A DNA stretch of 49,648 nucleotides from Candidatus Doudnabacteria bacterium (GTDB lineage: Bacteria > Patescibacteriota > Doudnabacteria > UBA920 > O2-02-FULL-48-8). The notes under the pieces are model-generated. The model ran no database searches. It was not told where the DNA came from and worked only from the letters and a program-made list of their open reading frames with translations. Below are positions 3,382 through 37,978 of the stretch, in pieces. The stretch's first letter is position 1; each line of letters starts with the position of its first letter. The position numbers and the translations under genes are program-made. Location: NCBI GenBank assembly GCA_016182875.1, contig JACPFQ010000005.1:1-49648 (forward strand), in the 5' to 3' direction.

Positions 3382-3693
3382 GGGTGAGGATTGGATATAG
3401 GCTCCTTGTAAGCTTCATTCACAGCTCTCCTGAGGCTGTTTTTGAAGGTTATTTTCATAGACTTCCGGAACTGCAAAGCCACCCAATCTTACCAAAACAG
3501 CATTAAATGGTCAACAGTTTTAGCGATTGCTTTGGTTAAGAGATGCCAAATCAAGCCTATTTTTGAGGTTATTTTTGTACCCAATATCCACAAATAGTCA
3601 GGTGATAGGTTATAGGTGATAGTTGATAGTAAAAGCCTAAAATTTTTTCTATAACCTACAACCTAAAACCTATAACCTGTATAATGCTTAAGC
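3382..3693. other. intergenic region between divergent genes, with inverted repeats and a possible -10 box
   Basis: No gene is visible. Near the right end an inverted repeat ('aggttataggt' near 3609 and 'acctataacct' near 3669) surrounds an AT-rich centre. A TATAAT at 3680-3685 stands only 8 bases before the ATG of the helicase gene, so transcription from it would give an almost leaderless message. No good -35 box is seen, and the TATAAT lies within the repeat, so it may be fortuitous. Confidence 0.4.
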
Positions 3694-6057
3694 ATGAAGC
3701 GTGAATTCGCAAAAAAACTTGGTTTGAATAAAGCTCAGCTCGAAGCGGTTACGGCCCCACTAGGTCCCGTGCTGATTTTGGCCGGTGCGGGAAGCGGCAA
3801 GACGCGGGCATTGACCATGCGGATTGTGTATTTGATAAAAAAATTAGGGATGAGGCCGGAAAATATTTTGGCCGTCACTTTTACGAATAAAGCCGCAGGC
3901 GAGATGAAGGAAAGAGTGAAAAAATTCGAATTTCGAAATTCGCCCGCCTCGACTCGCCGTCAAGGCGAGGCCGGGAAATTCGAAATTCCAACCATGGGTA
4001 CATTCCATTCGATCGGCGCCAGGATCCTTCGCGCCGAAGGCCGGCTGATGGGTTTGAAATCGGATTTTGTCATTTATGATACCGACGACGCTGAAAGTCT
4101 TTTGAAAGAGATTTTGATCCAACAGCGCATCGACCCTATTAAGTTCAAGCCTTCGCTTTTTTCCTACATCATCGACCGGGCCAAGAATAACCTACAAGAA
4201 CCGGAAGACATTGACTATGACGATAACTATGACAAAAAATTCGGACAAATGGCTCGCAAAGTTTATTCCGAATACCAATTGCAACTGAACAAGAACAACG
4301 CCGCGGACTTTGGTGACTTAATCATGTTACCGGTAAAAATTTTTCAGGCTTATCCGGAAGTGCTTAAGAAATATCAGGGCCGGTGGCAGTACATTTTGGT
4401 CGACGAGTATCAGGACACCAACCATGCCCAATATGTTTTCACCAAGCTTCTGGCCCAGGGCCATAAAAATATTTTTGTGGTCGGAGATGATGCCCAGGCC
4501 ATATATGGATTTCGCGGCGCCAACCTCCAGAATATTCTCGATTTCGGAGATGATTATCCGGACGCGAAGATCATCCGGCTGGAGCAGAACTACCGCTCAA
4601 CCGCTTCTATTCTTTCTGTGGCCGAAAAAGTTATAGCGCAGTCAAAGGAACAGCACAAGAAGAAGCTCTGGACCGAAAATGAGGAAGGGGCGATTCCAGT
4701 GCTTTATCGCGCGGAGGACGAGATGGCTGAAGCCTGGTTTGTCGGCAAGACGATTATTGACCTTCAGGATAACCCCCCTGTATCCCCCCTTATTTTAAGG
4801 GGGGATGAAAACCAGAGGCAAAAAACTCCCTCTCTTAATATAAGAGGGGGTCGGGGGGAGTTATCTTATGAGGACGAAGACGCCGCCCCGATTTTATCGG
4901 GGCGAGCCTCGCCCATCCCCGCTTCGACTCGCGTCGAGCGAGGCGAGGAAGATGGGCGGGAAGACGAAAGCATCTTATCCCGTATTATGCGCAAAGCTCG
5001 TTCTCGAATTTTACCCAAGCTTCAGAATCGCCAGGGTCTAAATAACATTGTTGTCCTTTACCGAACCCATGCACAGTCCCGCGCCCTGGAAGAAATGTTG
5101 ATTTCCGCAAGCATCCCATATCAGATAGTCGGCGGGCTGAAATTTTATGAGCGCCGGGAAATAAAAGATATGCTAGCTTACTTGCGCCTTCTCATTAATC
5201 CCATGGACATCGTAAGCCTCAAGCGCGTGATTAACGTGCCGCCAAGGGGAATTGGGCCAAAGACTTTTGAGATTTTGAAGGATGAATTATTGGCAGCGCC
5301 AGTTGAGAGTAAGGATCCCTCACGAGATAAAGCGTCAAGCGGATGGAGTTCCCCCCTTGGAACAAGGGGGGAACAAGGGGGGTTAGAATCAAAGCCCTCT
5401 GATCTAACTCCCCCAACCCCCTCTTATTCTAAGAGGGGGTTGCCTAACGCTTTACGTCAGACGATACGCGCCGCGCTGCCGAATAACGATAAACTGCAAG
5501 GTTTTTTTAACATACTAGAAACCATATCCAATCTTTCGGATGAGGCCAATATCTTGGACATTTTGCGCAATATCATGAAGCTTACCGGCTATGAGGCTTA
5601 TTTGAAGGATGGCACGGAAGAAGGGGATGGCAGGCTCGAGAACATCCAGGAGCTGTTCAACGTCGCGGCCAGTTTCCAAAATTTTGCCTGGAAAGAGGGT
5701 TTGAGCAAATTTTTGGAAGAAGTGGCTTTAATGACGTCCGTGGACGAGCTTGACTTGAATTCGCCCAAGGTCACCCTCATGACTCTCCACCAGGCCAAGG
5801 GCCTGGAATTCGACATTGTATTTTTGATTGGGCTGGAAGAAGGGCTTTTGCCGCATGCCAAGTCCATTTTGGAAGCGAAAGATATCGCGGAAGAGATAAG
5901 ATTGGCCTATGTGGGGGTAACCCGCGCCAAAAAGCAGCTTTATTTGGTTCATGCTTTGTCGCGCAAACAGTATGGCTTGAGGAATACGAGCGTGCCGTCG
6001 CGGATACTGAAGGGAATACCCGAAGAACTGCTGGATATCTATGGTGATAATTTCTAA
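3694..6057 (+). CDS. pcrA: ATP-dependent DNA helicase, PcrA/UvrD family
   Basis: Superfamily 1A 3'-5' helicase for DNA repair and replication restart. All motifs are present: Walker A 'GAGSGKT' at 31-37, Ia 'FTNKAAGEM', motif II 'DEYQDT' near 237, motif III 'GDDAQAIYGFRGA', motif IV 'LEQNYRS', motif V 'TLHQAKGLEFD', and motif VI 'AYVGVTRAKK' near 740. The 787-aa length exceeds the usual 650-750 because four palindromic DNA elements are translated in frame, at about residues 79-100, 359-391, 399-424 and 548-589. All lie between motifs, so the helicase core should be intact. The rsmA gene follows after one AT-rich palindrome, suggesting one transcription unit. Confidence 0.95.
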   Translation: MKREFAKKLGLNKAQLEAVTAPLGPVLILAGAGSGKTRALTMRIVYLIKKLGMRPENILAVTFTNKAAGEMKERVKKFEFRNSPASTRRQGEAGKFEIPTMGTFHSIGARILRAEGRLMGLKSDFVIYDTDDAESLLKEILIQQRIDPIKFKPSLFSYIIDRAKNNLQEPEDIDYDDNYDKKFGQMARKVYSEYQLQLNKNNAADFGDLIMLPVKIFQAYPEVLKKYQGRWQYILVDEYQDTNHAQYVFTKLLAQGHKNIFVVGDDAQAIYGFRGANLQNILDFGDDYPDAKIIRLEQNYRSTASILSVAEKVIAQSKEQHKKKLWTENEEGAIPVLYRAEDEMAEAWFVGKTIIDLQDNPPVSPLILRGDENQRQKTPSLNIRGGRGELSYEDEDAAPILSGRASPIPASTRVERGEEDGREDESILSRIMRKARSRILPKLQNRQGLNNIVVLYRTHAQSRALEEMLISASIPYQIVGGLKFYERREIKDMLAYLRLLINPMDIVSLKRVINVPPRGIGPKTFEILKDELLAAPVESKDPSRDKASSGWSSPLGTRGEQGGLESKPSDLTPPTPSYSKRGLPNALRQTIRAALPNNDKLQGFFNILETISNLSDEANILDILRNIMKLTGYEAYLKDGTEEGDGRLENIQELFNVAASFQNFAWKEGLSKFLEEVALMTSVDELDLNSPKVTLMTLHQAKGLEFDIVFLIGLEEGLLPHAKSILEAKDIAEEIRLAYVGVTRAKKQLYLVHALSRKQYGLRNTSVPSRILKGIPEELLDIYGDNF
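3928..3993 (+). repeat. in-frame palindromic element 1 in pcrA
   Basis: The outer arms 'gaatttcgaaattcg' and 'gggaaattcgaaattc' pair around a GC-rich inner hairpin 'cgcctcgactcgcc...ggcgagg'. It adds about 20 residues between motif Ia and motif Ib without changing frame. Confidence 0.75.
4768..4866 (+). repeat. in-frame palindromic element 2 in pcrA
   Basis: Outer arms 'gataacccccct' and 'ggggggagttatc' enclose two hairpins, 'ccccccttattttaagggggg' type and 'ctctcttaatataagagg' type. It codes for about 33 residues rich in P, R and G in the region between motifs IV and V. Confidence 0.8.
4888..4965 (+). repeat. in-frame palindromic element 3 in pcrA
   Basis: A hairpin 'gccccgattttatcggggc' is followed by further arms 'gcctcgcccat' and 'atgggcgg'. 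The first hairpin recurs nearly unchanged in the prgI gene near 16520, so it is a mobile or spreading family and not helicase sequence. Confidence 0.8.
5335..5460 (+). repeat. in-frame palindromic element 4 in pcrA (SPLGTRG family)
   Basis: A composite palindrome: hairpin 'ccccccttggaacaaggggg', outer arms 'ggggggttaga' and 'tctaactccccc', and a third hairpin 'ccctcttattctaagaggg'. It is translated as 'SPLGTRGEQGG...' to '...YSKRGLPNA'. Near-identical copies in the same frame occur in rsmA and twice in the 510-aa protein. Confidence 0.9.
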
Positions 6058-7191: not shown

Positions 7192-7401
7192 GTGAAACTT
7201 GAGGAACTGCTTACTTTAAAGCAGGTAACGCATTTGTTGAGCGTTCACCCCAACACCCTTCGCAACTGGGAAAAGGAAGGGCTGATTGATGTTGTGCGGA
7301 TAGGCCCAAGAGGAGACCGGCGCTATAAGAAACAAAGTATTCAAGAAATTCTAAAGGGGTCCTTCGCGAATTCAAAAATCAAAGAGCAAAATGCAAAATG
7401 A
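7192..7401 (+). CDS. small MerR/excisionase-type helix-turn-helix protein
   Basis: A 69-aa DNA-binding protein starting at a GTG. Residues 4-50 form a winged helix-turn-helix of the MerR or HTH_17 type ('LTLKQVTHLLSVHPNTLRNW' then 'RRYKKQSIQEIL'). There is no effector domain, as in BldC-like or excisionase-like proteins. It is first behind a good promoter carrying an operator-like palindrome, so autoregulation and control of the downstream secretion genes are plausible. Its last ten or so residues ('NSKIKEQNAK') are coded by the AT-rich palindrome that follows, so the native C-terminus has been replaced or extended. Confidence 0.8.
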   Translation: MKLEELLTLKQVTHLLSVHPNTLRNWEKEGLIDVVRIGPRGDRRYKKQSIQEILKGSFANSKIKEQNAK

Positions 7402-7472
7402 CAAAGTAAAATTCAAAGATGCTTTTTAATTTTTAAATTACATTTTGATTTTTGACTTTTGCATTTTGAATT
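7369..7472 (+). repeat. AT-rich intergenic palindrome, family I1
   Basis: About 105 bp with arms of the type 'aattcaaaaatcaaa' / 'tttgatttttgac...ttgaatt'. Other copies lie at 10347-10451, 19755-19861 and 37873-37978. All four end within 14 bases of a start codon. This copy also supplies the end of the HTH gene. Confidence 0.9.
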
Positions 7473-7476
7473 CTAT

Positions 7477-8397
7477 ATGAACAAACTCAAAAACAAATAT
7501 GGGACCTTTGTAACCAAGCAGGCTTGGTATTTTAGACGCAGGCATTTAACCATTGCTAGTATTACGGTTGCAGTTTTGATTTTGGGCGTAACCATAGGTT
7601 TTAGCTTGCTTAGGCAAAACAGCGAGCTTAAGCTTTCCATTCCGGCTGCTCAAGCTTCCGAAATCCCCAGCTGGTGGTATGAACAATATTTTGGCGCGGG
7701 TGTGTGCGTGCGCGACAACTGCAAGCCCGAGGCTGACCCGGACAGGGACAAGCTGACCAATGCCCAGGAATTTTATTATCATACCGAGCCGTTTAATCCC
7801 GATACGAACAACAACGGACTGACAGACGGCGAGGATGTGGCAAATAATTTTGATCCCAGCAGGCCGGGCAAAATGACCTTTGAAGAAGTCATGCACGAGG
7901 ACAATATTTTTGGCGAGAGCCTGCTTCTGGCTGAGGACGTGAAGGATATCATTCAGGAATCGAGTGACATAAATAAGGTTAACGTACCTCTAGTCCCCGA
8001 AGAGCTTCTAAAAATCACGGATGAGCAAACTCCCGAAATTTATGAAACTTACGGTTCGGACTTAAGAAGCACGATTAACCGGTATTTTGCGGAAGAAGAT
8101 TTGGAATCCTTGGTCGCGATTTTGGAACACGGCAGCAGCTCGGAATTCAGCGAAATAAAATATAAGGCCGGCAAGCTGGTGATTGACTTGAAAAAAATAA
8201 CCATCCCGCGCGAGATGCTTAATTTGCACCGCCAGATAATAGCTTTCTACCAGCTCCTGCCGGAAGTTTTGCTGGCCAAGGATTCCAGCATGGATATGGC
8301 CAGCAAAGAAAGCGATGTCTGGTTTGAAAACGTTGAAGCTTTGCTTGCGGCCAGCCAAAAAATTAACCAGGAGTATCAGCGCCTGGGCCTGAAGTAA
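7477..8397 (+). CDS. membrane-anchored protein with thrombospondin type 3-like calcium motifs
   Basis: The start is set at the ATG after the palindrome; the reading frame extends upstream only into repeat sequence from a TTG. The 306-aa protein has a basic N-terminus, one membrane helix at about residues 27-47, and an outer part with aspartate-rich motifs: 'DPDRDKLTNAQEF' and 'NPDTNNNGLTDGEDV' at about 86-115, typical of calcium-binding TSP3 or EF-hand-like repeats. The remainder is predicted alpha-helical without a family I recognise. It leads the secretion genes and is separated by two bases from the next gene, so it is probably translated with it. A role in envelope attachment is likely but not shown. 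Confidence 0.7.
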   Translation: MNKLKNKYGTFVTKQAWYFRRRHLTIASITVAVLILGVTIGFSLLRQNSELKLSIPAAQASEIPSWWYEQYFGAGVCVRDNCKPEADPDRDKLTNAQEFYYHTEPFNPDTNNNGLTDGEDVANNFDPSRPGKMTFEEVMHEDNIFGESLLLAEDVKDIIQESSDINKVNVPLVPEELLKITDEQTPEIYETYGSDLRSTINRYFAEEDLESLVAILEHGSSSEFSEIKYKAGKLVIDLKKITIPREMLNLHRQIIAFYQLLPEVLLAKDSSMDMASKESDVWFENVEALLAASQKINQEYQRLGLK

Positions 8398-8399
8398 TT

Positions 8400-10313
8400 A
8401 TGAGATTGCTAAAAGCTCAAAATAAAGTGGTCGTCGCCCTTGCAGTCGTCCTGCTGGCAGGACAGCTGGCTTTTTCATTCAGCTTCCTTTTGGTCCCCAA
8501 GCGGGCAGAAGCTTTTTTGGGCTTTGGCGACCTCAACATTAAAATCGGAGACATCCCCGGGTATATTGAAAAGGTCGTGCAGGGGGTTTTGGTCAGCCTC
8601 GGCACCCAGTATGCCAACAAATACTTGACCAAATTCGTCCAGAAACTTCAGGATAAATACCGGATCAAGGATTTCTTGTTTTACGACCAGTATCTTTCTG
8701 ACTATTACGTCACCAATCTCATTACCCGGAACGTGGATGACCCGGATTTGAGGCGCGCGCTTGAGCTGTTCACCGGCATTACCGTCACCGGCCGCACCGG
8801 CGGCTACCACGCCGGCATTTGCCGCAACGCCACTGCCGACACCAAGCAGGCTTGTCGGGCCAGAGGAGGGCAATGGGACGATATCGACCCCAGGAAAGCT
8901 TTGATCCCCCAGCTTAAGGCGAAGATAAACGATCTTTATAAGGCGCGGACCGGAGTAGATTACAGAAGAGTTTACTACCCGGCAAGAAGAGTATCAGACC
9001 GGGAATATTTCTCGACGGCCCAGTCGTTTTTCTACAATCATCCGAGCTTTACCGAAAGCAACCTTTATGCGCAATTCAGCGCGTTCGAGTCATCTGCCAC
9101 GACCGCGTCCAGGCTGGAAGTGGCAGTCGGCAGCGGGCTTAAGAACGGCAGAATCATCGGCGGCACTTGCGCTCGGCCCGCAGGTTCAGCTGATGACGCG
9201 GATATTTTTGACGCCATTGCCGGCGGCAATCCGCCCAAGGATCCGGTGAGTTGCAATGCGGCCGGCGGACATTGGGAGGCAAGCGCTCTGGACCAGGCCC
9301 GGTCGTTCATCACCAACCCAACTGCCTTTACCGAAAAGCAGTTGGTTGGCGCCGTTGACGCTATTTTCAAAAACAACTATGACGCTTCCAACATCTACAC
9401 GCAAATCGGCCGCTCTTTGGGCAACTTTATTTTTACAAGCCTGAATCTCAATGAGTCTGGCAGCGGGTTTAGCAACAGCAATGTCTTCAACGAGGGGGGC
9501 GAGGATTATGACCCCAACAGCACTGATGACTTTGACGTCTCGCTTCGCGTCATCGATTTAGATGGCGATGGTATACCGGACGGTGAAGACAATGACGAGG
9601 ACAGGGAATTAAAAAGTTTGGTGGATCTTTGCTACCACGACGCTAAGTCAGAGCCGGGCGAAGAGCCGCTGGTCTGCAACAAATCAAGTGAAACCGATTA
9701 TTCGGAATATCTAAGCCCGGTTTGCAAAGCTACGGACAACGCCATCTTGGCACTCGACAAATGGAGCGAGTTTCAGGAGACCCATAAGAATGAGGCTAAG
9801 AACACGACTAATTTCTGGAACGATGCAGACTCGAGCCGCTGGGGCGACGTTGGCTCCGAGGCTTTGTCGTATGTCGAAAAGCTGGTCAATGAGCTTAAGA
9901 AGAGCAACGTTACCCAGTATGACGGACCAATCAGGGACTTCAACCGATACGCCTGGTATTTGGACGCCATAGTCAGGTCGCTGTTTGGCAACAACGACGT
10001 GGATTTGCGCACTGGCCCCGGCAGCGGCGATGGCGGGACGTTCTTCAGTTCGAGAGTGCGGACTGCCAACATTCTTGACTATGCCAAGGACTTCCGAGCG
10101 AGAATAAGCAAGTGCGAACAGCCTGATTTGGAAGCCATAGAAGATTTGCCGCCGCCTGACCTTGAGTTCAACGAGCCTCCGGACACCGAGTTCGAACCAA
10201 CGGAAGACCAGCTAATTCTTGAACGGCTCAACGAACTCAACAAAGGAATCAAAGATGTCCGAGACGCAGTTGAAAACATTGAGATTGATGTAAACATCAA
10301 TAACAATGATTAG
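8400..10313 (+). CDS. secreted or anchored protein of the secretion locus, with Ca-binding loop and coiled-coil end
   Basis: 637 aa beginning with a signal peptide or anchor helix (about residues 11-33, ending near 'KRAEA'). Two cysteine motifs of similar build, 'CRNATADTKQACRARGGQW' near 140 and a second with 'SCNAAGGHW' near 285, suggest a duplicated disulphide unit. A calcium-loop sequence 'DLDGDGIPDGEDND' occurs near 387, and the C-terminal 50 residues form an amphipathic helix. I know no enzyme family for it. It lies between the TSP3-like protein and the VirB6-like protein on one strand with very small gaps, so it is probably an extracellular component of the same machine. Confidence 0.65.
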   Translation: MRLLKAQNKVVVALAVVLLAGQLAFSFSFLLVPKRAEAFLGFGDLNIKIGDIPGYIEKVVQGVLVSLGTQYANKYLTKFVQKLQDKYRIKDFLFYDQYLSDYYVTNLITRNVDDPDLRRALELFTGITVTGRTGGYHAGICRNATADTKQACRARGGQWDDIDPRKALIPQLKAKINDLYKARTGVDYRRVYYPARRVSDREYFSTAQSFFYNHPSFTESNLYAQFSAFESSATTASRLEVAVGSGLKNGRIIGGTCARPAGSADDADIFDAIAGGNPPKDPVSCNAAGGHWEASALDQARSFITNPTAFTEKQLVGAVDAIFKNNYDASNIYTQIGRSLGNFIFTSLNLNESGSGFSNSNVFNEGGEDYDPNSTDDFDVSLRVIDLDGDGIPDGEDNDEDRELKSLVDLCYHDAKSEPGEEPLVCNKSSETDYSEYLSPVCKATDNAILALDKWSEFQETHKNEAKNTTNFWNDADSSRWGDVGSEALSYVEKLVNELKKSNVTQYDGPIRDFNRYAWYLDAIVRSLFGNNDVDLRTGPGSGDGGTFFSSRVRTANILDYAKDFRARISKCEQPDLEAIEDLPPPDLEFNEPPDTEFEPTEDQLILERLNELNKGIKDVRDAVENIEIDVNINNND

Positions 10314-10346: not shown

Positions 10347-10451
10347 AATTCAAAAATCAAACTGCAAAATGCAAAATGACAAAGTAAAATTCAAAGATGT
10401 TTTTTAATTTTTAAATTACATTTTGATTTTTGACTTTTGCATTTTGAATTC
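10347..10451 (+). repeat. AT-rich intergenic palindrome, family I1 (copy 2)
   Basis: Almost identical to the copy at 7369-7472 over about 100 bp. It fills the gap before the VirB6-like gene and ends 13 bases before its ATG. Confidence 0.9.
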
Positions 10452-10464
10452 TTAGCAGTTGTTA

Positions 10465-13925: not shown

Positions 13926-15458
13926 ATGGCAGAATTAGACCACAATTTAATCCAAAAACTGTTCCGGATGGGCGAGCGATTCCAGGCTGATTTGGAGCGG
14001 CCGGTGCCCGTACTTACCAACCTAAGCCAGCTTTCCGAGCAGGCTACCGTTGTTCAATTTGAAAACCTGGTCAAAGAAATTATCACAAGGGACGACGGCG
14101 AAACAGCGCTTTTGGGAGTCACAATACTGACTCATTTGCTCAAAGAGCATCCACAGTTGAAAATAGACTATCCGCAAGTTTATGCGCGCTACGAAAAGTT
14201 AATTGGGCTCTTGAAATTCATTAACCTTTCAGCCCAGGCCGGCCTGCCTGAAATCAAACAGATAATTGCCGATCGTTTATTGGACGCCATAGAGGCGGGC
14301 ATTAAGGTAACCGCCAAGCTGGACTTTGTCCTGGATGTTTATGATGACTTTCTGTTGGAGGGCACTATAGCTTATGAGCTGGGCAAGGCCATGCTTGTTT
14401 GCGGCAGTCGCCTTGGCCAACAGCCCCTCGTGCTTAGCAAAACGAAAAGACAAGTGCCTCCAACGCTGGGCAACTGGCTTATAGATTACCGAAGCGCTGT
14501 GGCGGCGGACAAAGGCGGAAGCTACGAACAGATTACTTATATGAATCAGAGCGAGAACGCGAGGAAACTTCTGCCTGCGGATAAGAATTTATTGAAAAAG
14601 GTTTTGAAGCTTTATGACTGGCTGAGATTCGGAACTCCGATTGAAGAGGTGGTTGAAGCAGTTCCAGCTCCAAAGGTGGTAGCTTTGGTTAAAGCTCCGT
14701 CAAGTGATCAAACTCCTCCCCTTGGAACAAGGGGAGGTCGGGAGGGGTTAGGGGCTAAGTTCTCAAATCTAACTCCCCCTCCCCAGCCCCCGGCGGCCAG
14801 TGAGGTAGGGAAATTCTCTTATTCTAAGAGGGGGTTGCCCAACGCCACTCCCCCAAAGCCGCCTGTTGTACCTTCTGGAACCTTTCAAAAACCTCTGACT
14901 ATTGAGGAGCTAAAGAAAGAGGTTATTGCGCAGAGAACTCCACCACCCTCATCTGGCCTGCGGCCGTCTTCTCCCGTCAAGGGAGAAGATATATTGAGTG
15001 AGATCAAGCGAGAGGTCGCGACCAAGGAATTGGATATTTTGACGCCAAGCGTTAGGACTTCCCCCCTTGGAACAAGGGGGGATCAAGGGGGGTTAGAGGC
15101 CAAGCCCTCAAATCTAACTCCCCCTCCCCCCTCTTATTCTAAGAGGGGGGAGCTGCGGCCTAATGCTCTGCCGCAAATCAAATTCATCGACGACCTCAAG
15201 CGAATAGACGTTAATTACCTCCGCCGCGGAGACCCGAAGTCACAAACCTCAAATCTCAAATCGGCAATTTACAATCTGGCCGCGACAAACCGCATGTATG
15301 TCCACCAGATAGTAGTTGTTTTTCAGCAAAGCCCCTTGTTTAAGGCTTACTTAGCGCACGGAAGCTCCAAGGTTGCCGGCCAGCAGGTAAAAGGAGACCT
15401 GACGCAGGCCGAGTTTGAGGCGGTGGCGGATCTGAAGCGCGAGCTTGAGCGCATGTGA
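13926..15458 (+). CDS. protein of unknown function enlarged by three palindromic elements
   Basis: 510 aa, starting 12 bases after the VirB6-like gene. The first 245 residues look like an ordinary helical cytoplasmic protein with no signal or membrane helix and no family I recognise. After that come three stretches made of translated palindromes (about residues 261-308, 340-356 and 377-415), separated by short P/K-rich linkers. The last 80 residues again look native ('QIKFIDDLKRIDVNYLRRGD...' and a helical end). The N-terminal part may be a cytoplasmic factor of the secretion machine. The repeats would give a flexible proline- and glycine-rich linker. Confidence 0.6.
   Translation: MAELDHNLIQKLFRMGERFQADLERPVPVLTNLSQLSEQATVVQFENLVKEIITRDDGETALLGVTILTHLLKEHPQLKIDYPQVYARYEKLIGLLKFINLSAQAGLPEIKQIIADRLLDAIEAGIKVTAKLDFVLDVYDDFLLEGTIAYELGKAMLVCGSRLGQQPLVLSKTKRQVPPTLGNWLIDYRSAVAADKGGSYEQITYMNQSENARKLLPADKNLLKKVLKLYDWLRFGTPIEEVVEAVPAPKVVALVKAPSSDQTPPLGTRGGREGLGAKFSNLTPPPQPPAASEVGKFSYSKRGLPNATPPKPPVVPSGTFQKPLTIEELKKEVIAQRTPPPSSGLRPSSPVKGEDILSEIKREVATKELDILTPSVRTSPLGTRGDQGGLEAKPSNLTPPPPSYSKRGELRPNALPQIKFIDDLKRIDVNYLRRGDPKSQTSNLKSAIYNLAATNRMYVHQIVVVFQQSPLFKAYLAHGSSKVAGQQVKGDLTQAEFEAVADLKRELERM
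14708..14848 (+). repeat. in-frame palindromic element (SPLGTRG family) in 510-aa gene, copy 1
   Basis: Coded as 'TPPLGTRGGREGLGAK' to 'YSKRGLPNA', the same frame as in pcrA and rsmA. Extra sequence with 'cccccggcggccag' lies in the distal hairpin, as if another element had been inserted into it. Confidence 0.85.
14943..14990 (+). repeat. short in-frame palindromic element in 510-aa gene
   Basis: Proline-rich stretch coded from 'ccctcatctggcctgcggcc' and following GC-rich sequence, translated as 'PPPSSGLRPSSPVKGED'. It is related to the element in prmC near 48270-48340, which contains the same words in the opposite strand. Confidence 0.55.
15054..15170 (+). repeat. in-frame palindromic element (SPLGTRG family) in 510-aa gene, copy 2
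   Basis: Coded as 'TSPLGTRGDQGGLEAK' to 'SYSKRG', same frame and orientation as the copies in pcrA and rsmA. Confidence 0.9.
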
Positions 15459-15528: not shown

Positions 15529-15581
15529 AGTCTAGCTAAATCCGAAATCCGAATACCGAAATCCGAAACAAATTATCTTGC

Positions 15582-16153
15582 AGTTTAGTGTTTTACGGTA
15601 ACGAAGCCCGTATCGTGAGGAGTTAAGAGTTAAACGTCTTAATGCCAGAACAAAAAGACAAAAAGCCAATCAAAAGTTTTCGAGATCTTGAGGTTTTTCA
15701 AAATACGTATGCTGCAATGCTGCGCCTGATGAAAGAAGTCTTGCCTTTAATACCAGCGTCAGAGAAATATGACTTAGTAGACCAGTTAAGGCGTTCCTGT
15801 AAAGCTGCTCCCCGATTGATTGCAGAAGGTTATGCCAAAAGGCATCAGAAGTTTGGCTTTCAGAAATATCTTGACGATGCCATGACTGAGTGCAACGAAA
15901 CCATAGTCAGCTTAGAACAGGCCCGTGATATTTACGGAATTAACCCAAAGGTGATAAACGAGCTAGTTGATATTTACGACAAATCTGGACGACAAATATA
16001 TAACCTAAGCACTGCTTGGACTAACTTTAAAGACCCTAAACGTAACCAGGAATCGTCTAAAGGTAAACGGTAACGAAACCGGTATCGTCAAGGGTCAGAC
16101 GTCTAACGTAACCCCTAAACGATACGGGCATCGTAACCTTTTAACCCTAAACT
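15582..16153. mobile_element. candidate cassette: S23/IVP-type gene enclosed by 60-bp imperfect inverted repeats
   Basis: The sequence at 15582-15641 recurs as reverse complement at about 16093-16153. The core 'ggtaacgaagcccgtatcgt' (15597-15616) matches the complement of 16119-16138 at 18 of 20 bases, with outer AGTTTAG and inner ACGTCT blocks conserved. A third, direct copy of the core lies at 16069-16088 across the stop codon, so the 3' side can also form its own hairpin. The only gene inside is the four-helix-bundle protein. Confidence 0.75.
15642..16073 (+). CDS. four-helix-bundle protein of the S23/IVP (23S rRNA intervening sequence) family
   Basis: 143 aa with the family pattern 'SFRDLEVFQNTY', 'LVDQLRRSCKAAPRLIAEGY', 'FGFQKYLDDAMTECNE' and a final helix 'LVDIYDKSGRQIYNLS'. 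Members occur as open frames in the stem-loop intervening sequences of 23S rRNA genes of some bacteria, and also elsewhere in genomes; their function is unknown, and related Avd proteins help diversity-generating retroelements. No reverse transcriptase or variable repeat is near. Here the gene stands between secretion genes and is surrounded by long inverted repeats, with its stop codon inside one of them. The basic tail follows 'TNFKDPKRNQ'. Confidence 0.85.
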   Translation: MPEQKDKKPIKSFRDLEVFQNTYAAMLRLMKEVLPLIPASEKYDLVDQLRRSCKAAPRLIAEGYAKRHQKFGFQKYLDDAMTECNETIVSLEQARDIYGINPKVINELVDIYDKSGRQIYNLSTAWTNFKDPKRNQESSKGKR

Positions 16154-16202
16154 AAAAGAATCTCGTGCTTCGATATTCGAATTTATAAACTAAGCTTAAA
16201 CC

Positions 16203-16646
16203 ATGCAATTCGCTATTCCCCAATTCACTGATGTCGAAGATAAGCTTATAGGTCCGCTGACCCTAAAGCAGTTTTTGACTCTGCTGGCGACAGGAGGACT
16301 GGCTTTGTTTTTCTGGAGTTTGTTCGGGCTCAGCATCATTTTCTTCTTCTTCGCCGGGCCAATTGTTTTGCTGGGTGTGGTGGTGACATTTGCCAAATTC
16401 AACGGCCGGCCGTTTTTTGCCTATGTTTTTCCGTTCTTCAACTTTACGACTTCGCCCAAGGTTATGATTTACAAACGGGAAGGAGTGCCTGTGACTTTTT
16501 CCAAGAAGGTAGTTTCTGCCGCCCCGATTTCATCGGGGCGAGCCTCGCCCAGCGAAGCTGGGCGGGAGAACAGGCTTAGAAAATTGGCATACGTATTGGA
16601 CCAGAAAACGTCTGAGGAGGAAAAGCTAATTGAGGAAATAAAGTAA
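16203..16646 (+). CDS. prgI: PrgI-family inner-membrane protein of the type IV secretion system (VirB3-like)
   Basis: 147 aa. The N-terminal 'MQFAIPQFTDVEDKLIGPLT' and two adjacent membrane helices at about 24-40 and 42-62, followed by 'NGRPFFAYVFPFFNF', are typical of PrgI, a small channel partner of VirB4 ATPases in Gram-positive and Patescibacteria systems. The native C-terminal region is interrupted at about residues 105-123 by an in-frame palindrome. The gene lies between two S23-type cassettes and upstream of the TraC/VirB4 genes, which is the usual PrgI-VirB4 order. Confidence 0.85.
   Translation: MQFAIPQFTDVEDKLIGPLTLKQFLTLLATGGLALFFWSLFGLSIIFFFFAGPIVLLGVVVTFAKFNGRPFFAYVFPFFNFTTSPKVMIYKREGVPVTFSKKVVSAAPISSGRASPSEAGRENRLRKLAYVLDQKTSEEEKLIEEIK
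16516..16572 (+). repeat. in-frame palindromic element in prgI
   Basis: Hairpin 'gccccgatttcatcggggc' followed by 'gcctcgcccagc' / 'gctgggcggg'. It is the same family as pcrA element 3 (4888-4965) and is translated as 'AAPISSGRASPSEAGREN'. Confidence 0.85.
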
Positions 16647-16663
16647 GAATTGACCTAATTAAC

Positions 16664-17094
16664 CTAATTGACCTAATTTTTAAACAATGTCTAATGACCC
16701 AAGCTCCAATGACAAAAAATATGACCTTGAGGAAAGGACAGCTAAGTTTGGGGAAGACATTGTGAAATACTGCAACGATTTGCCAAGAAATGATATTACT
16801 AGGCCTTTGATAAACCAGCTGGTTAAGTGCGGAACTGCTGTCGGCGCCAACTACTGTGAAGCTGATGACGCAGAAAGCAAAGCAGATTTCAAGCATAAAA
16901 TTGGCCTTTGCAAGAAAGAATCCCGCGAATGCAACCACTTTCTAAGAATGTTTTTAGTCGCTGTGCCTGAAATGAAAGAGCGAACCCAAAAACTCTGGAC
17001 TGAAGCAAAAGAATTAAACCTGATCTTCAACAGCATTTATAAGAAACTTAAATAATTGGGACATTGGTGCTTGTGTATTTTTTAGGTCAATTAG
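16664..17094. mobile_element. candidate cassette: second S23/IVP-type gene between 13-bp perfect inverted repeats
   Basis: CTAATTGACCTAA at 16664-16676 is repeated exactly as reverse complement at 17082-17094, directly outside the second four-helix-bundle gene. Similar AT-rich words continue outwards on both sides ('attgacctaatt' and 'aaattagaataattag'). The arrangement mirrors the first cassette, but the repeat sequence is unrelated. Confidence 0.6.
16687..17055 (+). CDS. second S23/IVP-type four-helix-bundle protein
   Basis: 122 aa with the family pattern 'YDLEERTAKFGEDIVKYC', 'LINQLVKCGTAVGANYCEAD', 'DFKHKIGLCKKESRECNHFL' and a final helix ending 'FNSIYKKLK'. It is only distantly similar to the protein coded 600 bp upstream, so it is not a recent duplicate. 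It lies between prgI and the TraC-like gene, in a stretch where those two would normally be adjacent, which suggests insertion. The flanking inverted repeats support this. Function unknown, as for the family. Confidence 0.85.
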   Translation: MSNDPSSNDKKYDLEERTAKFGEDIVKYCNDLPRNDITRPLINQLVKCGTAVGANYCEADDAESKADFKHKIGLCKKESRECNHFLRMFLVAVPEMKERTQKLWTEAKELNLIFNSIYKKLK

Positions 17095-17119
17095 AAATTA
17101 GAATAATTAGAAATTCTCA

Positions 17120-17818
17120 ATGAAATCCGAAATGCAGTCGTCACAATTAGCTAATCGCAAATCGAGCATCTCGACCCAGTCGATTTTGGACATTGCCGAG
17201 ATTAAAGAAGGCACTGTTGTTCTTAAGGATGGGTCGCTTAGGGCCGTGATTGCGGTGTCATCAACCAATTTTTCTTTGAAAAGCGCAGATGAGCAGGGCG
17301 GGATTATCAGCGCATATCAGAGTTTTTTGAATGGCTTAAGTTTTCCGATTCAAATTTTGATGCAATCCAGAAAACTGGACATCCATTCTTATCTGGATAA
17401 ATTGCGTTCCGTGGCCCAGGAGCAAACCAATGAACTCCTGCGCATGCAGACCCAGGAATACATCGAATACGTTTCCAAGCTGATTGAATTTGCTTCTATC
17501 ATGAATAAGACTTTTTACATAGTTGTGCCCTACTTCACCGGAACCGCGGTCAAACAGGGCTTCATGTCCAAGTTCGGCAAGATACTCAATCCCGTAAGCG
17601 GCATTTCCTCCAAAAAAATGGAATTCGAAAAAAATCGCGAACTGCTCAATCAGCGCGCCAACCAGATTTCGGGGAGCTTGGGGGGCATTGGCCTGCGAAG
17701 CATTATTCTTTCCACCGAGGAATTAATTGAATTGTTCTACAACAGCTACAATCTTTCCAGCTCTCAGCAGATAAAAATTAAGGACGTGGAAGAGCTGGAC
17801 ATGCCAACAGCAGAGTAA
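17120..17818 (+). CDS. TraC/VirB4 N-terminal-like component of the type IV secretion system
   Basis: 232 aa, soluble. The sequence 'ILDIAEIKEGTVVLKDGSLRAVIAVSSTNF' type start, 'YQSFLNGLSFPIQILMQSRK', and 'FYIVVPYFTG' match the N-terminal, non-ATPase domain of TraC/VirB4 proteins. In Patescibacteria this domain is often a separate gene before the ATPase, as here. No Walker motif is present. It probably docks the ATPase to the membrane components, such as PrgI encoded upstream. An AT-rich palindrome separates it from virB4. Confidence 0.75.
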   Translation: MKSEMQSSQLANRKSSISTQSILDIAEIKEGTVVLKDGSLRAVIAVSSTNFSLKSADEQGGIISAYQSFLNGLSFPIQILMQSRKLDIHSYLDKLRSVAQEQTNELLRMQTQEYIEYVSKLIEFASIMNKTFYIVVPYFTGTAVKQGFMSKFGKILNPVSGISSKKMEFEKNRELLNQRANQISGSLGGIGLRSIILSTEELIELFYNSYNLSSSQQIKIKDVEELDMPTAE

Positions 17819-17905
17819 TTTTAAATTTGAAATTATAAATTATAAATAAAATATTTTAATAATTTAAATTATATTTAAAACTGAAAATTTATAATTTAAA
17901 ATTTT
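17819..17905 (+). repeat. AT-rich intergenic palindrome before virB4
   Basis: About 85 bp consisting almost only of A and T ('ttttaaatttgaaattataa' to 'ttataatttaaaattttcc'), self-complementary end to end. It resembles family I2 in design and position but is more degenerate. Confidence 0.65.
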
Positions 17906-17908
17906 CCA

Positions 17909-19756
17909 ATGAAACTCCCCAAGCTCCCAAAAATTCCCGGACTCCAAACCCAACCGTCTCCAAAGGTTGAACTGGAAAAGAAAATTCTCGAGGCCGAGAA
18001 AGAATACAAGTCCGGGCTTACCAGCCTCCGCGACTTAATCGCGCCTTCAGCTTTTGTAATCAATTCCAGCTACGCCGAAGTTTCGGGCAAACTGGCGCGA
18101 AGTTTTTTCGTCGTCTCCTACCCGCGGTTTATTTCCGTTAACTGGCTCTCTCCCGTGATTAGCCTGGACACCCAAATGGACATGGCGATGTTCATTTACC
18201 CCATTGATACCGAAGAAGTTATGAAGAAACTCCGCAATAAAGTCGGCCAGCTCCAGTCGACCATGGCCATGAATCAGGAAAGAGGCCAGGTCCGCGACCC
18301 GATGCTCGAAACGGCTTACCAGGACGTCGAGGCGCTGCGCGACCGGCTTCAGCAGGGTACAGAACGCTACTTCCGCTATTCGATTTATTTTACGGTTTAC
18401 GCCGACACCCTTAAGGAACTCAATGAAATTTCTTCGACTCTTGAATCGTTGCTGGGATCCAAGCTAATCATTACCAAGCCGGCGGTGCTTCAAATGGAGC
18501 AGGGATTCAATTCGACCTTGCCCCTTGGCAATGACGAACTGGCCATTGCGACCAACATGAACACCGAGCCCTTAAGCACGACATTCCCCTTTGTTTCCTC
18601 CGAGCTTACGAGCAACGACGGAATTCTGTATGGCATTAACCGGCATAATAATAGCTTGATTTTGTTTGACCGGTTTCAGATGGAAAACGCCAATTCCGTC
18701 GTCTTTGCCAAATCAGGAGCCGGCAAAAGCTACGCGGTCAAGCTCGAGATTCTCCGGTCGCTGATGCTTGGTTCTGAGGTGATTGTGATTGATCCTGAAA
18801 ATGAATATAAACACCTGTCCGAAGCGGTAGGCGGCAGCTACCTGACTATTTCCCTGAACTCGGCCTCGCGCGTCAATCCGTTTGATTTGCCGCCGGGCAT
18901 TGAGGACGAAAGCAATGAGGATATTCTCCGCTCGGCTGTGGTCAATCTTTTGGGCCTGATGAACCTCATGCTCGGCAAACTTAATCCTACGGAAGAAGCG
19001 ATTATGGACCGGGCAATTTGGGAGACATACGCCAAAAAAGACATTACTCCGGCCAGCTCGTTCGTCAATGCCGAGCCGCCTTTGATGCAGGACTTGGTGG
19101 AAATTTTGGGCGGCATGGTCGGCGGCGAGAGCTTGGCGCAAAGGCTGACTAAATATACCGAAGGGACTTTCAGCGGGATTTTCAACCAGCCAACCAACAT
19201 CAACATGGACAATCAGCTGGTCGTGTTTTCGGTCCGCGATTTGGAAGATACGCTGCGGCCGATTGCCATTTACGTTGTCCTCAATTACATCTGGAACATT
19301 GTCAGGTCTCATTTAAAAAGAAGGATACTCGTGATAGACGAAGCTTGGTGGATGATGCAGCATGATGATTCCGCCAGGTTCCTGTTCGGGATTGCAAAGC
19401 GGGCGCGAAAATATTATTTGGGCGTAACGACCATCACGCAGGATGTTTCGGATTTTTTGCAGTCGCCTTACGGCAAGCCCATCGTCACCAATTCTTCGAT
19501 TCAGCTTTTGTTGAAGCAGTCGCCGGCAGCAATTGATTTGATAGCGGAAACTTTTTTCCTGACCGAAGGGGAGAAATATCTGCTTTTGGAATCCGATATC
19601 GGCGAGGGGATTTTCTTTGCCGGACTCAAGCACGTCGCGATCAAAATCATTGCCTCCTACATGGAAGACCAGATTATCACCACTGACCCCAAGCGCGCCT
19701 TGGAAATCGAAGAAGCCAAGAAAGAATTGCAGGCAGAATCCCAGCAAGCAAGCTAA
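17909..19756 (+). CDS. virB4: type IV secretion system ATPase, VirB4/TraC family
   Basis: 615-aa cytoplasmic ATPase that powers substrate or pilus-subunit movement. Walker A 'SGAGKSYAVK' lies at about 269-278, Walker B 'RILVIDEAWWMM' at about 472-483, and the 'TTITQDVSDFL' motif near 510 is characteristic of VirB4/TrwB-like HerA-FtsK ATPases. The first 220 residues include a second part of the VirB4 N-terminal domain. The catalytic motifs look complete. It is the most conserved gene of the locus and supports naming the cluster a type IV secretion-like system. Whether the machine moves DNA, protein or a pilus cannot be told; no relaxase or VirD4 is visible here. Confidence 0.92.
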   Translation: MKLPKLPKIPGLQTQPSPKVELEKKILEAEKEYKSGLTSLRDLIAPSAFVINSSYAEVSGKLARSFFVVSYPRFISVNWLSPVISLDTQMDMAMFIYPIDTEEVMKKLRNKVGQLQSTMAMNQERGQVRDPMLETAYQDVEALRDRLQQGTERYFRYSIYFTVYADTLKELNEISSTLESLLGSKLIITKPAVLQMEQGFNSTLPLGNDELAIATNMNTEPLSTTFPFVSSELTSNDGILYGINRHNNSLILFDRFQMENANSVVFAKSGAGKSYAVKLEILRSLMLGSEVIVIDPENEYKHLSEAVGGSYLTISLNSASRVNPFDLPPGIEDESNEDILRSAVVNLLGLMNLMLGKLNPTEEAIMDRAIWETYAKKDITPASSFVNAEPPLMQDLVEILGGMVGGESLAQRLTKYTEGTFSGIFNQPTNINMDNQLVVFSVRDLEDTLRPIAIYVVLNYIWNIVRSHLKRRILVIDEAWWMMQHDDSARFLFGIAKRARKYYLGVTTITQDVSDFLQSPYGKPIVTNSSIQLLLKQSPAAIDLIAETFFLTEGEKYLLLESDIGEGIFFAGLKHVAIKIIASYMEDQIITTDPKRALEIEEAKKELQAESQQAS

Positions 19757-19861
19757 TTCAAAATACAAAAGTCAAAATGCAAAATGACAAAGCAAAATTT
19801 AAAATTATTCTCTTTGCATTTTTAATTACATTTTGATTTTTGAGCTTTGATTTTTGAATTT
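19755..19861 (+). repeat. AT-rich intergenic palindrome, family I1 (copy 3)
   Basis: Starts at the virB4 stop codon region and ends six bases before the next ATG. It shares the 'aaaatgcaaaatgacaaag' core with the copies at 7369 and 10347. Confidence 0.9.
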
Positions 19862-36956: not shown

Positions 36957-37867
36957 GAACTGAGATAATTTCTAATCCTTCGCTCAGCTTGCTTTTGATT
37001 TTTAGTCCACCGGATTCTTTTGTCGCGCTTAAACCAGGTCATCTGGCGCTTCGCATACTGCCATTCGGCAGTTTTTATTTTTTTCACAAGCTCTTGCTTG
37101 TCGTCTCCATTTTTCAAGTATTGCGCAACCAAAGCATAGGTCAGCCCGATTTGTTTGAAGCGTCCAGATGTTATGCCCGTGCTTAACATCTGTTTAACTT
37201 CCTTGAGCATGCCCTGCTTGATTCTTCGGTCAACGTTTTTGGCGATGCGCTGTTTGAGATTGGGTGGATTGAGGCCTAAAAGCAATGCAGGAGATCCCGA
37301 ATCCCGCCGGCGCCAAGGCTTTGGCGGGCAGGCAAGTTCAGGATTGCGAGAAGGGACTGGCTTGCCAGTCACTTTCACAATCTCAATGGCTCTGATTAAG
37401 CGCATTGGATTATGCCTATCGATGGTTTTGGCGCGGCGCGGGTCAAGCTTTTTGAGCATTTTAAAAAGCTCAGGAGCAGATTTTTTTGCAAGCTGCCGGC
37501 GAAGCTTGGGGTTGGGCTTAACCTCGGGAATCTTAAGGCCATCGATAGCCGCATAAATGTAAAAAGCCGTGCCGCCGACCAGAAAAGGAAGTTTGCCGCG
37601 TGACATAATTCTATCTATCGCTATTTTTATGTCATGTTTGAAATGGGTAACAGTATATTGCTTTTTAGGTGAAATGATGTCGAGTAAATGATGTTTAACT
37701 ATCCGCCGCTGGTTTTTGCCCACCTTACCTGTTCCGATATTCATCCCTTTATAAACTTGCCTGCTGTCGGCGGAAATGATTTCGCCGTTGAATTTTTTGG
37801 CAAGCTTGATGGCAAGCGAAGATTTGCCGGAAGCGGTAGGACCGAGGATGACCACTAGTTTATTCAT
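36935..37867 (-). CDS. miaA: tRNA dimethylallyltransferase MiaA
   Basis: The start 'MNKLVVILGPTASGKS' is chosen; the upstream extension of the frame comes from a palindrome. 310 aa with the P-loop 'GPTASGKSSLA' at about 8-18, 'ISADSRQVYKGMNIGTGK' and 'RLIRAIEIVKVTGKP'. The enzyme adds dimethylallyl to A37 of tRNAs reading UNN codons. An in-frame palindromic element occupies about residues 172-195, between 'VTGKPVPSRNPE' and 'PALLLGLNPP', which are adjacent in other MiaA proteins apart from a short loop. The core motifs are unaffected. Confidence 0.93.
   Translation of the reverse strand: MNKLVVILGPTASGKSSLAIKLAKKFNGEIISADSRQVYKGMNIGTGKVGKNQRRIVKHHLLDIISPKKQYTVTHFKHDIKIAIDRIMSRGKLPFLVGGTAFYIYAAIDGLKIPEVKPNPKLRRQLAKKSAPELFKMLKKLDPRRAKTIDRHNPMRLIRAIEIVKVTGKPVPSRNPELACPPKPWRRRDSGSPALLLGLNPPNLKQRIAKNVDRRIKQGMLKEVKQMLSTGITSGRFKQIGLTYALVAQYLKNGDDKQELVKKIKTAEWQYAKRQMTWFKRDKRIRWTKNQKQAERRIRNYLSSPTLGKI
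37283..37352 (-). repeat. in-frame palindromic element in miaA
   Basis: Nested palindrome 'gatcccgaatcccgccggcgcc' type arms around 'caaggctttggcgggcagg', ending in 'caagttcaggattgcgag'. The outer word recurs in rsmA (6529-6551) and the inner 'ggcgggcagg' in thrS (38199-38232). Confidence 0.8.
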
Positions 37868-37872
37868 AAGGA

Positions 37873-37978
37873 AATTCAAAATGCAAAAGTCAAAATGCAA
37901 AATGAAAGATTAAAATTAAAAATTATTCTCTTTGCATTTTTAATTACATTTTGATTTTTGCTCTTTGATTTTTGATTT
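37873..37978 (-). repeat. AT-rich intergenic palindrome, family I1 (copy 4)
   Basis: Same family as 7369, 10347 and 19755, here on the minus strand directly before the miaA ATG. Confidence 0.9.

Follow-up and report, generated by a model that had tools for sequence, protein, structure and literature searches.

An S23 gene within its own palindrome in a Doudnabacteria T4SS operon: a probable small mobile element

In the intervening sequences (IVSs) of 23S rRNA, as in Leptospira and Coxiella, an S23 open reading frame lies in the loop of a stem that is formed by terminal inverted repeats. IVSs were described in the 1990s, and to our knowledge the S23/IVP proteins have since then been without an assigned function; we also know of no catalytic activity for S23. 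IVSs without a gene are also known. The Coxiella IVS has a 28-bp stem and is excised by RNase III, and mobility of 23S rRNA IVSs has been proposed as a hypothesis (PMC4990558). In the stretch of DNA analyzed here, an S23 gene with inverted repeats is found between protein genes, not in rRNA, which raises the question of whether such a gene and its repeats form a unit, and whether this unit moves. Below, "the window" is the whole stretch of 49,648 nucleotides, which is one contig of a 14-contig, 789-kb genome.

The gene in question, S23a, occupies positions 15642-16073 of the plus strand and encodes a protein of 143 amino acids. The sequence-only reading of this DNA had proposed a four-helix-bundle protein of the S23 type, and the assignment held, with matches to PF05635 at 60.1 bits (cut-off 33.8) and to TIGR02436 at 47.5 bits (cut-off 24). 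The AF2 model (pLDDT 86.7) is predicted to fold as a four-helix bundle, with 2gsc as its best PDB match (TM 0.73/0.88, rmsd 1.8), and both solved S23 proteins, 2gsc and 2rld, match the predicted structure. After the S23 proteins, the next solved structures are Avd (4dwl) and the DGR RNP (8ube), which match the model more weakly. Avd, the accessory protein of diversity-generating retroelements (DGRs), has the same fold as S23 and works with RNA and a reverse transcriptase. Because the S23a model resembles Avd, RNA binding would be a reasonable guess for S23a.

The left arm of the cassette (15576-15641, plus strand) is half of a dispersed palindrome and contains a 20-nt core at 15597-15616 (GGTAACGAAGCCCGTATCGT). 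On the 3′ side there is more than one arm, namely a complete, imperfect palindrome of ~100 bp (16063-16159, plus strand), with cores at 16069-16088 and 16119-16138, and the S23a stop codon, a TAA at 16071-16073, sits inside it within the motif GGTAACG. The inverted repeat itself pairs 15576-15616 with 16119-16159, 41 nt that are 80% complementary. The repeat had been described before with 18 of 20 matches in the core and with an extra direct copy over the stop codon. Both features are as claimed: the cores at 15597-15616 and 16119-16138 match at 18/20 positions, their outer ends fall exactly at 15597 and 16138, and 15595-15637 is 74% identical to 16067-16109. The complementarity score of the gene's own flanks is 38, compared with scores of swapped flanks that have their 99th percentile at 19 and reach at most 25. 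S23 is the only open reading frame between the arms, and a recognized transposase is absent from this interval. Further out, a short-period repeat, AAATCCGAAATCCGAATACCGAAATCCGAAAC (15540-15575, plus strand), has a weak partner at 16165-16190 in a gapped alignment of the flanks, and the two may possibly be an older hairpin around the cassette. On the 3′ side of the cassette is a PrgI-family T4SS gene (16203-16646, plus strand; PF12666), which is found in 13 of the 14 genomes of the family and served as the anchor for comparing loci.

The suggestion that a gene in a stem-loop occurs here far from rRNA was borne out, as no rRNA was found in the window, and the design turned out to be general for S23 genes outside rRNA. 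No 23S gene is present in the assembly of this genome. We searched 60 related CPR genomes, 43 of which have S23 genes, and scored local alignments between the flanks of 99 S23 genes and, as controls, of 182 other genes at these loci, where a gene was counted as having its own inverted repeat if the complementarity of its own flanks exceeded the 95th percentile of swapped flanks. An own repeat was found for 73% of the S23 genes vs 7% of the controls (p = 5e-29), in a sample where all genomes are metagenome-assembled or drafts, mostly metagenome bins, and where related genomes are not independent. The median complementarity between the 5′ and 3′ flanks of S23 genes was 19 for own and 11 for swapped flanks. 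The arms abut the open reading frame, with a median of 3 nt before the start codon and 1 nt after the stop codon, and they vary from gene to gene, often consisting of degenerate 6-10-nt words. We considered whether any small cassette gene in these genomes is surrounded by inverted repeats, and rejected this given the low rate in controls and a rate of 29% among 21 GIY-YIG genes. One GIY-YIG gene, at locus L185, does lie in long inverted repeats (~125 nt aligned, score 68) that contain GTCATTCCCG repeats. At two other loci, L025 and L032, S23 domains are part of longer open frames of ~340 and >600 codons within the loci, the latter extending to 1534 codons by genome search. These long frames are possibly in-frame fusions or read-through of the arms.

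The argument for movement comes from the position of S23a in related species. Three Doudnabacteria species have S23a orthologues that form one clade (support 99/99), all in the same T4SS operon and each at a different intergenic site: upstream of PrgI in the window, between VirB4C and the next gene in G001, a sister species of the same genus, and, in G012, upstream of a TrbL-like gene. In G001 the site upstream of PrgI (the OrfX-PrgI junction of L054, ~8330-8632) is taken by a GIY-YIG gene that lies in a different inverted repeat (CCAGGTAGTAAAAATTCGAT / ATCGAATTTTACTACCTGG), and the exact site of the G001 cassette is occupied in the window by a gene-less hairpin of family B, after VirB4C (19755-19860, plus strand). 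As to a target-site duplication, no clean empty site was found at the nucleotide level, and the ends of palindrome A possibly carry a TA. The earlier proposal of a mobile cassette that brings its own stem is thereby upheld, since the site differs in each of the three species and the arms travel with the gene. From these comparisons, mobility of the S23a cassette is well supported, and we infer that it has moved. Carriage by phages or plasmids was rejected, as no relative is found in IMG/VR or phage records and plasmids gave only remote matches with ≤37% identity. A related observation is that a gene-less hairpin at 17817-17903 lies between two VirB4 open reading frames, and the same junction in G003 holds an S23 gene.

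Beyond this operon, close relatives of S23a were found at 52 loci from many phyla, with 49-86% identity and with no rRNA within ~3 kb at any of the 52. These genes are scattered through unrelated operons and phyla. Most of them have a common palindrome: the 20-nt core GGTWACGANGCCSGTWTCGT is present on both flanks in 35 of 49 S23a loci from many phyla (≤4 mismatches), against a background of 0.026 per flank in the rest of the loci and 2 of 1020 shuffled flanks. Over 120 S23 genes, arm similarity climbs with protein identity, and none of 200 permutations reached as high a value; pairs above 60% identity often have common arms, whereas distant pairs do not. Some phyla interleave in the S23a tree, but with few rows per phylum, and the main argument for horizontal transfer is therefore how similar the sequences of different phyla are. 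Because the genomes are metagenome-assembled or drafts, some phylum labels of single contigs may reflect mis-binning. Together, these comparisons show that arm, gene and arm form one unit, which takes up different intergenic sites in related species and whose arms track protein relatedness across phyla.

The palindrome is also found away from the gene. Gene-less copies occur on contigs C1, C4, C8 and C9 of the same genome, and a covariance model of the palindrome found copies in 8 of the 14 genomes of the family. When sites for GGTWACGANGCCCGTWTCGT were counted genome-wide with ≤2 mismatches, G074 had 124, G071 had 46, G068 had 42, and G000 and G001 had 11 apiece. Of the 23 genomes with a known S23a, 21 gave matches, with just one in G066 and none in G075 and G077, and the count was 0 in 15 genomes where an incomplete search had revealed no S23a. 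The exceptions are G007 and G010, with 10 and 12 matches, where a non-exhaustive search did not find S23a. Most motif pairs in G074 are 72-80 nt apart with nothing between them, and those with S23a between them are 443-447 nt apart, two of them at 445-447 nt. The copies are dispersed pairs of inverted short palindromic motifs, in the manner of REPINs.

A second cassette in the window behaves in the same way. This genome has eight S23 genes, one of which, S23b (16687-17055), has a left arm at 16648-16684 (AATTGACCTAATTAACCTAATTGACCTAATTTTTAAAC) and a right arm at 17081-17116, all on the plus strand. The gene is duplicated together with both arms at contig position C9:262522, and the two paralogues are alike from outer arm end to outer arm end and not beyond, with homology to the C9 copy stopping at the right arm.

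Where do the gene-less copies come from? The arms of two other S23 genes of this genome, at C13 and C9:60560, match two gene-less hairpin families of the window with scores of 43 and 37, compared with shuffled maxima of 24 and 19. The family B hairpin at 7369-7474 can be read as the C13 cassette minus the middle of its open reading frame, such that the first nine codons are joined to the last four (stop included). Its sister copy at 10347-10452 is identical at 103/106 positions (both on the plus strand), and homology between the two stops at the hairpin ends. Relative to the C13 cassette both hairpins keep both parental ends, as a MITE does. In G074 as well, hairpins retain the last codons of an S23a copy (AAAAGACGATAAACGTAGCC). 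Most palindrome copies are gene-less, and from the retained codons at least some look like multiplied internal-deletion (MITE-like) derivatives. The sequence-only reading had held that repeats without the gene in relatives would speak against a mobile cassette. Such repeats do exist, so to the letter the refuting observation was made, yet the gene-less copies resemble internally deleted cassettes, and this supports mobility. The opposite order is also conceivable, in that the palindromes could be older and could have captured S23 or supplied the ends of its open reading frame. A further family B hairpin (37864-37954) is antisense to its neighbors.

The protein, the stem and the orientation of the cassette each appear constrained. 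For S23a, NG86 dN/dS was saturated and codon-position identities were used in its place: between G000 and G001 second codon positions are 95% alike and third positions 56%. The left arm is ~93% alike between the same two genomes. With third positions at 56%, this suggests that the arm is conserved beyond neutral sites or homogenized with other copies. Across 32 S23a sequences from many phyla, 40 residues are invariant. The hairpin stem in G074 is nearly invariant save for fixed unpaired positions, with core position 16 unpaired in 25/25 copies, position 9 in 21/25 and position 4 in 19/25. Fewer cells of this stem pair than in any of 500 shuffles, and no compensatory base changes were found in it; the mismatches are kept. 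In other genomes, too, the S23a arms have their mismatches at these positions, mostly as A.A on the coding strand. Between co-directional neighbors, S23 genes are sense rather than antisense at 76:0 in CPR genomes and at 35:2 for S23a. Across the loci compared, the cassette almost always sits between two genes of the same operon and is in sense with them. This near-absolute orientation is compatible with S23 being expressed from the transcript of the host, with a step through RNA, or with antisense copies being selected against.

Our favored explanation, which we judge to be probable from the comparisons above, is that the feature is a small mobile element in which one S23 gene lies in the loop of its subfamily's own palindrome. 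We hypothesize that S23 would be translated from the host transcript and would recognize the hairpin, as RNA or single-stranded DNA, through the conserved stem with its fixed mismatches. The protein would then help its hairpin to copy or move, and gene-less derivatives would use S23 in trans. The enzyme for strand transfer may be a host or a trans-acting one, and the stem might be cut by RNase III. We also offer a bolder proposal, which we hold tentatively and think may well be wrong: S23 itself would confer mobility on a class of prokaryotic elements of its own, which encode no transposase, reverse transcriptase or homing endonuclease. It would read the hairpin through the fixed-mismatch stem and drive its copying into sense intergenic sites, probably through RNA. 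The IVSs of rRNA would then be copies that landed in rRNA.

The favored explanation has to be weighed against an origin in which an ordinary transposase (e.g. RAYT/Y1) moves the palindromes as REPINs or MITEs and S23 is a passenger caught between two copies. Short dispersed palindromic pairs of near-fixed length do resemble REPINs, and a half copy on the 5′ side with a full copy on the 3′ side of the window gene would suit capture between two elements. Y1 transposases co-occur with S23 (Fisher p = 0.004, uncorrected for relatedness), so Y1 could be the mover in some genomes. However, the only Y1 (RAYT-like) gene found in this genome (L017:1270-1914; contig C7:24897-25130) has its own palindrome, GCAAAGGGCACCTTTGC, which is unlike that of S23a. 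Three genomes that are 96-99% complete have 4-7 S23 genes and neither Y1 nor reverse transcriptase. Among the listed G074 motif pairs there is no gap the size of a transposase gene, and none encloses a gene of that size. Nor would a passenger be expected to have the same arms across many phyla or to leave the ends of its open reading frame in gene-less copies. We therefore consider a passenger origin unlikely. An obligatory Y1 or reverse transcriptase in the same genome was rejected, as eight genomes with at least three S23 genes have neither. No reverse transcriptase was found at the S23a locus, and genomes with 4-9 S23 genes occur without a reverse transcriptase match.

We find two further explanations harder to accept. 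S23 genes might enter the loops of pre-existing hairpins by an unknown route, so that the arms would belong to the target and not to the cassette. Gene-less hairpins are indeed common in intergenic regions of the window, an older repeat seems to surround the window cassette from outside, and IVSs occupy helices of 23S rRNA (PMC4990558). Against this, S23a has the same arms at unrelated sites and in unrelated phyla, S23b copies have their arms and not their flanks in common, and gene-less copies retain pieces of the open reading frame. For S23a and S23b this is largely refuted, and overall we regard it as very improbable. We give slightly less credence still to the idea that the repeats are terminators or mRNA-stability hairpins of an ordinary operon gene, inherited vertically, with a regulatory role in secretion. 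The sense orientation, tight packing in operons, purifying selection on S23 and retention of S23a in the same T4SS operon by three Doudnabacteria would all agree with such a role, yet the position shifts among relatives, operons and phyla with the gene are unrelated to one another, and copies of the palindrome are spread over the whole genome. Because the position changes, an operon gene is refuted as the full explanation.

The proposed S23 element resembles several known systems and differs from each. It has the loop-borne reading frame of 23S rRNA IVSs, but its arms belong to dispersed repeat families that members of one S23 subfamily have in common across phyla, and it is seen to change position. 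With REPIN/RAYT systems it has in common dispersed, near-fixed-length palindromic pairs, one cognate gene and stem mismatches; unlike them, the cognate gene is an S23 four-helix bundle instead of a Y1 (HUH) transposase and lies inside the palindrome. Like insertion sequences and MITEs, it has terminal inverted repeats around one open reading frame and commoner, internally deleted derivatives, whereas it differs from insertion sequences in its lack of a transposase and its near-absolute sense orientation in operons. Despite the fold in common with Avd, the element comes without a reverse transcriptase, and genomes with many S23 genes can be without any. Some insertions in CPR 16S and 23S rRNA also encode 23S_rRNA_IVP open reading frames (PMC11270868), but those insertions interrupt rRNA genes, and most of them code for homing endonucleases of the LAGLIDADG or GIY-YIG type.

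In the literature searched, which left preprints and many subscription journals outside, we came across no account of S23 cassettes that lie outside rRNA and have a cognate palindrome, and novelty is provisional to that extent. On the sequence comparisons made here, the S23 cassette seems to be a mobile element of a kind that has drawn little notice, and its sole gene is no known transposase. If so, the stem-loop-with-reading-frame design of rRNA IVSs would exist outside rRNA as a widespread mobile element, with a cognate palindrome for each subfamily and many gene-less derivatives. In CPR genomes such elements would account for a large class of intergenic hairpins, and comparisons of S23 cassettes make the old, open question of IVS mobility testable. 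How an element can move with no known recombinase becomes a question as well.

Other repeats in the window are recorded here as separate observations. The contig end has a perfect 58-nt inverted repeat (1-58 / 199-256), possibly an assembly-end artifact. Positions 4770-5439 contain CCCCCC/GGGGGG-rich inverted repeats of the TCCCCCCTTGGAACAAGGGGGG type, and similar words occur within the open reading frame at 13926-15458. Two gene-less hairpins at 2009-2093 and 3607-3678 consist of GATAGTTGATAG words and resemble the arms of S23 genes in G001 (L054:9187-9579) and G007 (L106).
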